Source: Hyphomicrobium sulfonivorans (lineage in GTDB: Bacteria > Pseudomonadota > Alphaproteobacteria > Rhizobiales > Hyphomicrobiaceae). Taken from it: 64,000 nt of DNA. A model generated the notes under the pieces. It was not told the origin of the DNA, did no database searches, and saw only the letters and a list, made by a program, of their open reading frames with translations. This document shows positions 1 through 41,848 of the stretch, in pieces. The stretch spans positions 136,501 to 200,500 of the forward strand of contig NZ_PZPO01000002.1 in the NCBI RefSeq assembly GCF_013306565.1. The letters are read 5' to 3'. Position numbers and translations under genes: made by a program. Numbering within the stretch: the stretch's first letter is position 1; every line of letters starts with the position of its first letter.

Positions 1-616
1 GTACGGACCCGGCGGAGATGTCAGCTGCGCCTTTGCCGGGGTCGACCGTGATGCCTTGCCCGGCATCGCCCACGACCGCGCGGGCGGCGGTCTCGCCATA
101 GCGGGCGCCAACGAAGGCTTTCAGACAGGCCAGTGCCGGCTCGGTCGCGTCTTCGCTGGCAAATTCCATCTGGCGGCCAATTTCGTTGCCGACGCCCACC
201 GCGAGCTGCTCAAGCGCGCCCTTCATGGCGTCGGAGCGATAAACCCGTTCAGCCACAGCGGTGGCCAGCTCCTGGGCTTTCTGCTGGTTGGCCAGTGACT
301 GGAGAAGATTGGCCCAGCTCGTCTGCTGGCGCACTTCCTCGACCGCGAGGTCGACCCTGGTATCAATGATGCCGTCCATGCCGATGCGGCGCCATTGATC
401 CCGCACCGCTGCGTGATAATCGACGCCGGCGATGCCGGCCTTTAGCGCCCGCACTGAAATGCCCTGAATAGTCTTGCGGAAGGCCGCCTCGTCCTGGGCC
501 TGGCAGGCCTCATATTCAGCGCGGGAAAGCGGATCGGCAAATGCCGGAGCGACCGGTCCAGCGGCGATGGCAATGGCGAGGAGCAGCGAGAGGGGGCGGC
601 GAGCGTGGGCGAGCAA
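1..616 (-). CDS. Secreted hypothetical protein, 3' part missing (window edge)
   Basis: An open frame on the minus strand runs from a TTG at 616-614 off the left edge (205 codons seen). A stop lies three codons upstream in frame, so TTG is the only sensible start; a GAAGGA motif sits about 10 bases before it. The first ~27 residues form a signal peptide (Arg/His, a Leu/Ala/Ile core, then APAFA before ADPLS). The rest is helical and Ala/Glu/Gln-rich without a domain I recognise. It is probably periplasmic. The function is unknown. Confidence 0.7.
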   Translation of the reverse strand, partial: MLAHARRPLSLLLAIAIAAGPVAPAFADPLSRAEYEACQAQDEAAFRKTIQGISVRALKAGIAGVDYHAAVRDQWRRIGMDGIIDTRVDLAVEEVRQQTSWANLLQSLANQQKAQELATAVAERVYRSDAMKGALEQLAVGVGNEIGRQMEFASEDATEPALACLKAFVGARYGETAARAVVGDAGQGITVDPGKGAADISAGSV

Positions 617-961: not shown

Positions 962-1479
962 GACTGTACAACACTGAGTTGAGGTATTAGCAGTGGTGTT
1001 CCCGAGGGAACCGCAGGCTTTTTAACCCTCAATTACAGTCCTGACTAATCGACCAATTGAGAAATGTTATTGTTTTAAGGCGTTTACCAATGAAGCTGGG
1101 CAGTCGCATCGGATTTCTGGGCGGGAAAATAGTTACTCTCAATTCCCGTTCAGGTGGCAGGAGAATGGCCTCGTTCTCGTCATTCTTTCGCCTCAGGTGG
1201 ATTTGCACCTTCCCTTGCCCTTATGCGGGAAGGCCACACCAAGTGGCTCGGGGGAGGTTAGTTCGGAGGGAAATGTCGGTTCCTGGCTTTGAGTGGCTGC
1301 GGCAAGGTGACCAGTCGCACTTCAAGGCTGATCCGTTCAGTGAGGGGGTTCGACCCCTCTCGTACTATACGGGTGCGGGGCCTTACCCGGTGCAGCGGCT
1401 GATCATTTTCAGAGGGACGTCTGCACTAAACTAGCAATTGTTCGGCAACCGCTCTCTATCAAGGAAACGAAATAGAGAG
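962..1479 (+). ncRNA. Candidate large structured RNA (about 0.5 kb), class unknown
   Basis: The stretch has no convincing ORF but many closely packed helices. Examples are 962-968/1034-1040 (7 bp, perfect), stacked directly on 978-984/1027-1033, which encloses 998-1002/1007-1011; then 1120-1127/1143-1150, 1161-1167/1181-1187, 1195-1199/1206-1210 (alternative to 1208-1214/1227-1233), 1233-1237/1243-1247, 1286-1295/1318-1328 (one bulge), 1342-1347/1354-1359, 1370-1374/1385-1389, 1390-1395/1421-1426 and 1452-1459/1472-1479. The non-Watson-Crick pairs in these helices are G-U in the plus sense and would be A-C on the other strand, which argues for plus-strand transcription. I found no tmRNA, RNase P, SRP or 6S signature. 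It could be a free RNA or a long leader of the downstream hydrolase gene. Confidence 0.5.
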
Positions 1480-1589
1480 AGTTTCAGCGACAATCTCCGG
1501 TCATCGCGGACTGAGTCTCCCGCGGTCTACCGGAGCCGGATGGGGTTCTTTTGGCTTCGTCTAGTAAGCGAGCGAGTTCAGTTACCAAG

Positions 1590-2486
1590 ATGCAAAACAG
1601 CGAAAAAATGAAAGCGGCTTGGGGTAGCATTTTCGTCCCGGGGGGGCGTAACGGCGTGCTTTTGGTGCACAGCCTGGGTGGTTCCCCGCTTGAGCTGAAG
1701 TTCGTTGCACACACGCTGGGCCAACTTGGCTACACCGTATATTGCCCACTCATTCCAGGTCTTGCCGGCGGGACGGACGTCTCGGGCCTTTCGACCTGGC
1801 GTGACTGGTATGGCGCGCTTGAGCAGGCGCACAACGATCTGACCGAGCAGTGTGACGCCGTTATTGTAGGCGGCATCTCGGCCGGCAGTATGCTGGCCCT
1901 GCGCCTGGCGGCTACGCGGCCTGAGAAGGTCCATGGCCTCATGCTGTTCTCGCCCACGCTGAAGCCTAATGGCTGGGCGATCCCGTGGTATTTCCGCTTT
2001 TTCAGCCTCGTGCAGCAGAAGTGGACGGCGCGCCTGTTCAAGTTCCAGGCCCGTAACCCGCACGGCATCAAGGATGAGCGCCTGCGCAACTTCATCCTCG
2101 ACAGCGTGAACAGCGAGTCCAGCACGATGCCGGATCTGTTCGCCCGCGGCGGTGGACTGATCTATGAGTTCCGCCGACTGGTGAACAACGTCAAGCCGCT
2201 GCTTGGCCAGATCACGCAGCACACGCTGATGTTCCACCCGCGTCACGACGATCAGAGTGATCTGGTCAACGCCATGGTTCTGCAGCGCAAGCTTTCCGGG
2301 ATCGTTGAGACCTGCGTGCTTGATGACTGCTATCACATGGTGACGCTGGACCGTCAGCGCCCGATCGTGATGGAGCGCGTCAAGGAATTCGCGACCCGTC
2401 TCACCGCACGGTTCGAGAAGCTGCGGGCTGAGGAAGCGATCATTTCCTCCGCCAATCGTGGCGAAGGGCGTGGCGCTACTCCCTGA
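1590..2486 (+). CDS. Alpha/beta hydrolase (carboxylesterase/lipase-like)
   Basis: The 298-residue product is a cytosolic serine hydrolase of the alpha/beta-hydrolase fold, closest in style to monoacylglycerol lipases and Est30-type carboxylesterases. An HSLGG oxyanion motif lies near residue 30, the nucleophile elbow is GISAG (GxSxG), an Asp occurs in PRHDDQSD, and the catalytic His is in CYHMVTLD. The substrate cannot be deduced. A TTG 13 codons upstream (1551), preceded by GGATGGGG, is an alternative start. The gene is followed by a strong terminator and appears monocistronic, directly downstream of the candidate structured RNA. Confidence 0.85.
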   Translation: MQNSEKMKAAWGSIFVPGGRNGVLLVHSLGGSPLELKFVAHTLGQLGYTVYCPLIPGLAGGTDVSGLSTWRDWYGALEQAHNDLTEQCDAVIVGGISAGSMLALRLAATRPEKVHGLMLFSPTLKPNGWAIPWYFRFFSLVQQKWTARLFKFQARNPHGIKDERLRNFILDSVNSESSTMPDLFARGGGLIYEFRRLVNNVKPLLGQITQHTLMFHPRHDDQSDLVNAMVLQRKLSGIVETCVLDDCYHMVTLDRQRPIVMERVKEFATRLTARFEKLRAEEAIISSANRGEGRGATP

Positions 2487-2556: not shown

Positions 2557-2590
2557 AAAAAGCCCGGCCTTGGAGCCGGGCTTTTTGTTG
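2557..2590. terminator. Rho-independent terminator, probably bidirectional
   Basis: The stem AAGCCCGGC / GCCGGGCTT around a short loop has an A-run on the left and a T-run on the right. It sits between the hydrolase gene and the convergent DUF2147 gene and can serve both. Confidence 0.9.
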
Positions 2591-2730: not shown

Positions 2731-3366
2731 TCAGTCGAGTGCCTTCGATTGCTCAATCGGCTTGGGCCGCACCGCTGGAACTGGCCGCGGCACCTTGAGG
2801 GCGGGCAAAGCCTTCGCTTCTTGCGTCTTGGCGCTAGCCTTCTTGCGGGCATCTTGCTGGACACCGTCGCAGCGGGGCAGATCGTCCGGAGCGCGCTTCC
2901 AGGTAAACGACTTTGAGAACAGCTTGATGCCCTTATAGCCAGTAAGTACCAGCCGATCGCGGTTGGCCAGCTTTATGGCTGCATCGAACGAGGCCCCCTG
3001 CTCCGGGTCGTACACCCAGCCATTGTCCCAGCCGCCGCTGACACGCTGCAACGAGCCGAGCACGGGCAAACCGCAAATGCTGCGATTACGTTTCGTCGGG
3101 TCGGGATTGTAGCCATCCGTCAATGGCTCGCCGCGCTTGTTCGCCGGGTCTTTGAGCCAGACGATGTAGCCGCAAAGATTTCTCGATGCCGGACCTTGCT
3201 CTGCGCACGGACGGATCTCTACGGCGCCGCGGCCGGTGTGATTGATCCAGACCCCGAGTTCCGGGGAGGCGGCAGAAACGCTGGAGAAACAACCAAACAA
3301 AACGCTAATAACCAACGCGCCGGCCAGTGTTTTCAGGGCTGTTAAGCCAGGAAGATCATGACGCAT
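2731..3366 (-). CDS. DUF2147 family secreted protein
   Basis: This 211-residue protein starts with a signal peptide (residues ~1-32, ending SVSAAS) followed by a DUF2147 domain of about 120 residues: GVWINHTGRGAVEI, LCGYIVWLKDP, CGLPVLGSL and a closing LTGYKGIKLFSKSFTWKR segment. A Lys/Ala/Pro-rich tail of ~45 residues follows. DUF2147 proteins are small periplasmic or surface beta-barrel-like domains of unknown function, common in Hyphomicrobiales. The gene stands alone, convergent with the hydrolase. Confidence 0.85.
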   Translation of the reverse strand: MRHDLPGLTALKTLAGALVISVLFGCFSSVSAASPELGVWINHTGRGAVEIRPCAEQGPASRNLCGYIVWLKDPANKRGEPLTDGYNPDPTKRNRSICGLPVLGSLQRVSGGWDNGWVYDPEQGASFDAAIKLANRDRLVLTGYKGIKLFSKSFTWKRAPDDLPRCDGVQQDARKKASAKTQEAKALPALKVPRPVPAVRPKPIEQSKALD

Positions 3367-41548: not shown

Positions 41549-41612
41549 AAAAAAACCGGCCGGATATTGAGGACCTAGAAGGCCGCCTCATCCGTTAACC
41601 GGGTGCGCGCGG

Positions 41613-41669
41613 CCCTTTTTAGCGACTTATTTAACGTGGTTGCAAGCCGGCCGGCCAAATCACCACGAC
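41613..41669 (-). promoter_or_regulatory. SAM-II riboswitch (metX leader)
   Basis: On the minus strand the element reads CGTGGTGATTTGG, then GCTTGCAACCACG, then TTAAATAAGTCGC and TAAAAAGGGC. CGTGGT/ACCACG form P1. The GATTT, TTGCAA, TTAAA and GCTAAAAAGG blocks match the known SAM-II consensus in order and spacing. SAM binding folds a pseudoknot over the AAGG region and lowers metX expression. Location in front of metX is the classic one in Alphaproteobacteria. Confidence 0.92.
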
Positions 41670-41848
41670 ATCTGACATCGAAATATCGGCATGGGCGCCT
41701 TAACGTCAAGTGTCGGGCCCTGCACATCAGATCGCAGCGTCAATCAACGCCAGTCTATTGGCGTGCAAAGCTTTGCGTTTCGCTTTCGGCGTCTGTATCA
41801 CTTCCCGCGCCTGAAAACTAAAGGCTCCATACATCCGGAAAGCCCGCA

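Follow-up and report, generated by a model that had tools for sequence, protein, structure and literature searches.

The intergenic region between an alpha/beta-hydrolase gene and its divergent neighbour in a Hyphomicrobium-type alphaproteobacterium contains a hairpin, HP-C, that covaries among relatives on the plus strand, and it carries several conserved sequence blocks. We suspect that this region controls both divergent genes and that HP-C lies in the 5' leader of the hydrolase mRNA, where it would act in cis; we give this reading about an even chance. From the sequence we infer that HP-C is co-transcribed with the hydrolase and influences it. The preliminary description had taken 962-1479 as a whole for a candidate large RNA, and had offered as options an ornate bacterial RNA, an orphan omega/HEARO-type RNA or a long leader of the hydrolase gene. 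The long leader is the best supported of these options, although only for a smaller element, HP-C at 1358-1380 within 1294-1391.

The window is the whole stretch of DNA that was analysed (64,000 nucleotides; G000, contig C8, 136501-200500) and is part of a 3.55-Mb genome. The relatives compared were Hyphomicrobium species and other Hyphomicrobiaceae. In window coordinates, the features are as follows.

2-616, minus strand: divergent gene for a protein without an assigned family, with a signal-like N-terminus; open at the window edge
617-1589, no strand: putative intergenic control region, from the divergent gene to the hydrolase
955-1015, no strand: conserved block B1 (TGTGGCG..ACAACA..GTTGAG..ATTA), from the alignment
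1148-1191, plus strand: possible stem-loop, variable in sequence and followed by a conserved TTTCGCC; marginal in the alignment fold (z -2.0 plus, -0.15 minus)
1294-1391, plus strand: conserved element of ~98 nt, block B2 (TGCGGCAAGGTGACC..TCG) followed by a hairpin; covariance model R1
1358-1380, plus strand: hairpin HP-C, nine pairs and a 5-nt loop, covarying, from the alignment fold and covariation
1462-1497, plus strand: conserved block B4 (AGGAAACGAAA.AGAGAGAGTTTC), from the alignment
1531-1559, plus strand: possible hairpin HP-E, with seven pairs in four of eight genomes, six in two, and absent in two
1561-1580, plus strand: conserved block B5 (CTAGTAAGCGAGCGAGTT) directly before the start codon, from the alignment
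1590-2486, plus strand: alpha/beta-hydrolase gene (Abhydrolase_6, 4.3e-12)
2566-2586, plus strand: terminator-like hairpin 3' of the hydrolase, from a consensus match

The product of the divergent gene has no Pfam or NCBIfam match. By tblastn synteny, this gene and the hydrolase stay together in ten genomes, including four from other genera. The hydrolase frame is open already from 1551, and the ATG at 1590 was chosen as the start because a TAA precedes the matching ATG in three relatives. Downstream of the hydrolase lies a gene for a DUF2147 protein (2731-3366, minus strand; PF09917, 6.7e-26).

A sliding alignment-fold scan, comprising about 30 window-and-strand tests, returned one strong and plus-strand-specific signal, at 1298-1454. 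This signal was traced to HP-C alone (z -6.5 on the plus strand, +1.3 on the minus strand), and 1298-1589 without HP-C is indistinguishable from shuffles. Over nine pairs in eight genomes, the cells of HP-C comprise 53 Watson-Crick pairs, 15 G-U pairs, 4 mismatches and no A-C. The covariation score exceeds those of all 500 shuffles, and among the eight pairs that were counted, two have changed on both sides. Given that the alignment holds only eight sequences, including two close pairs (G000/G001 and G004/G007), and that none of the other predicted helices passes this test, the conservation of HP-C might be a coincidence arising from the many windows scanned in so small an alignment. We consider this very unlikely, since none of 500 shuffles was as good despite the small number of tests, and controls with slid partners fell far below HP-C.

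HP-C could also be a DNA dyad, that is, an operator in a region that acts solely as DNA. Other blocks in the region do resemble DNA sites: of 53 regions upstream of the hydrolase, 26 contain TGCGGCA (2.7 expected) and 11 contain CTGC-N3-GCAG (0.7 expected), and TGC-rich sites have been reported for PhaR (PMC10888616). However, the excess of G-U over A-C cells in HP-C argues against a dyad, because a dyad has no need for mismatches limited to those that pair in RNA of one strand, and the positive minus-strand z points the same way. We therefore regard a purely DNA-level role for HP-C as unlikely.

The covariance model R1, built from 1294-1391, finds one strong copy (87-102 bits) in each of the eight genomes of the window's genus-level clade, in every case upstream of the hydrolase. 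Elsewhere in 103 family genomes it scores about 20 bits or less, and no full copy was confirmed there. A few weak hits in front of the hydrolase in other genera were rejected as copies of the element, in that they span block B2 and not the hairpin; HP-C is confined to the clade. A literature search for Hyphomicrobium small RNAs or RNA motifs yielded nothing relevant. It is conceivable, if doubtful, that 1294-1391 is the core of an undescribed class of regulatory RNA, either a leader element or a small RNA, that is particular to one Hyphomicrobium clade and has its own binding partner.

HP-C might instead belong to a separate, trans-acting small RNA on the plus strand, with its location before the hydrolase being incidental. 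In favour of this, HP-C has the character of an RNA hairpin, lies about 210-230 nt before the start codon, and is tied to the hydrolase by position alone. Nevertheless, a small RNA of this kind is a minor possibility in our view: HP-C is always found beside the same gene, a conserved terminator after it is absent, and the conserved blocks extend beyond 1479 as far as the ATG at 1590. A leader hairpin of the hydrolase mRNA, our preferred reading, is consistent with what was found, namely conserved structure with compensatory changes (in one hairpin only) and a constant place upstream of the same gene. Bacterial cis-regulatory mRNA leader hairpins are similar in these respects, and in having conserved blocks up to the start codon, but differ in that the putative leader here has a single hairpin and is without a known ligand, protein or expression platform.

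In this leader scenario, the upstream part of 617-1589 would work mainly as DNA, providing promoter and operator sites. The hydrolase message in the window's clade would begin above 1358, and its 5' leader would thus be at least 230 nt long, with a block of DNA control sites upstream of it. HP-C would most likely act in cis on the hydrolase mRNA, through its stability, its translation or a protein-binding site. If transcribed, HP-C would add to the leader elements not yet described and would reveal how this conserved hydrolase is controlled.

Some of the properties first ascribed to 962-1479 are borne out. The region is indeed AT-rich, with 52.1% GC compared with 61.2% for the window, which places it in the lowest 2% of 518-nt windows. 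It also appears to be protein-free, as proposed: tblastn with its open reading frames gives only short matches that coincide with conserved DNA blocks and are spread over several frames and both strands, and the longest frame (minus strand) is interrupted by stop codons in relatives. On these grounds a conserved reading frame was rejected. The 7-bp helix at 962-968/1034-1040 (GACTGTA/TACAGTC) is present in the window, and seven perfect 7-mer inverted repeats occur within 80 nt, compared with 2.2 in dinucleotide shuffles (5 of 300 shuffles reach seven).

The description of the region as heavily structured fared less well, as the fold of 945-1500 is only mildly stable (z -1.93 plus, -2.47 minus). 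G-U pairs had been read as a sign that pairing is directional; the minus strand folds slightly better than the plus strand, and G-U pairs give no directionality because whichever strand is folded makes use of them. The predicted structure of 945-1500 was projected onto the alignment of the eight clade genomes, six of which are diverged and not near-identical to the window. For predicted pairs wholly below 1290, 40-43% of cells can still be formed in the six diverged relatives, compared with 39-42% in the slid-partner control. The helix at 962-968/1034-1040 is lost in all six, and in the homologues neither strand of the upstream part is unusually stable. Because of these three results, we conclude from the comparison of sequences that 962-1290 does not encode a conserved structured RNA.

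A large, ornate RNA of half a kilobase spanning 962-1479 is the least likely of the explanations considered here, and we regard it as highly improbable. It draws on the excess of inverted repeats and on a single borderline alignment-fold result for 944-1297 (z -2.5 plus, -1.7 minus). Against it stand the helices below 1290, which pair no better in relatives than slid controls, the ordinary stability of homologues, the fold of the minus strand in the window, which is as good as that of the plus strand, and the lack of an Rfam match; conservation is lowest in the middle of the region. A large ornate bacterial RNA would be expected to keep many helices over several hundred bases, and these were not seen. 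Covariation in relatives, proposed as a check, was found for one hairpin (1358-1380) and not for the helices below 1290. Most of 962-1479 is ordinary intergenic DNA that changes quickly. The region is a clear case in which abundant inverted repeats between two genes suggest a large RNA to the eye, and comparison with relatives upholds one small piece and not the whole.

Searches with Rfam 15 at the gathering threshold gave no match, either in the region itself or across 20 related loci, and relaxing the cutoff to E<=10 gave no meaningful match in the region. The suggested HEARO or omega RNA (RF02033) is not supported and resembles this locus solely in being a noncoding stretch with predicted helices. 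RF02033 had no match at gathering, nor at E<=10 in 640-1700, and the neighbours in the window are the hydrolase and a protein without a family rather than an IscB-type gene, although orphan HEARO RNAs do occur. A whole-genome search with RF02033 was empty, and the control genomes were silent as well. The sole Rfam match in the window is a SAM_alpha (SAM-II) riboswitch aptamer at 41598-41676 on the minus strand (75.9 bits).

The 3' end of B1 carries a TTGC-N3-GCAG-like site in most clade relatives, which is degenerate in the window according to motif counts, and we infer that B1 is a DNA control site. Enrichment of CTGC-N3-GCAG and TGC-type sites upstream of the hydrolase in relatives is reminiscent of PhaR-regulated promoters in alphaproteobacteria (PMC10888616), whereas the degenerate state of the candidate CTGC-N3-GCAG-type site in the window itself is unlike them. 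A terminator-like match at 1148-1191 is found in the window and not in relatives. Similarly, an 8-bp hairpin at 1452-1479 in the window is not kept in relatives, whereas the sequence of B4 is. HP-E is not significant by itself in the alignment fold. At the place of B5, most genera have an AGCGAGT-like sequence.

In most loci of other genera, TTGGC keeps a nearly constant distance of 65-66 nt from the ATG that follows, and it can be read as a proximal promoter there. It is absent from this position in the window's clade, an absence that agrees with a longer leader starting further upstream. A search of 600-2650 for sigma-70-type promoters gave no match, which counts against the leader reading. 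A perfect GGAAC-N16-CGTT, resembling an EcfG promoter, is present about 557 nt before the hydrolase ATG in the loci L070 and L071 of G004 and G007. Within the clade it is perfect only in these two genomes, and its counterpart in the window (about 1064-1088) is degenerate; an EcfG-like promoter was rejected for the window. In genus g10 (L079-L103 and L118), a nearly invariant GCGCGACAAAGTTGCGTTGGCAT is found about 100-60 nt before the hydrolase ATG. The GCGCGACAAAGTTGCG hairpin of this genus is plus-strand-specific by energy, but its sequence is almost invariant, so that a DNA dyad overlapping a -35-like TTGGCA is just as plausible.
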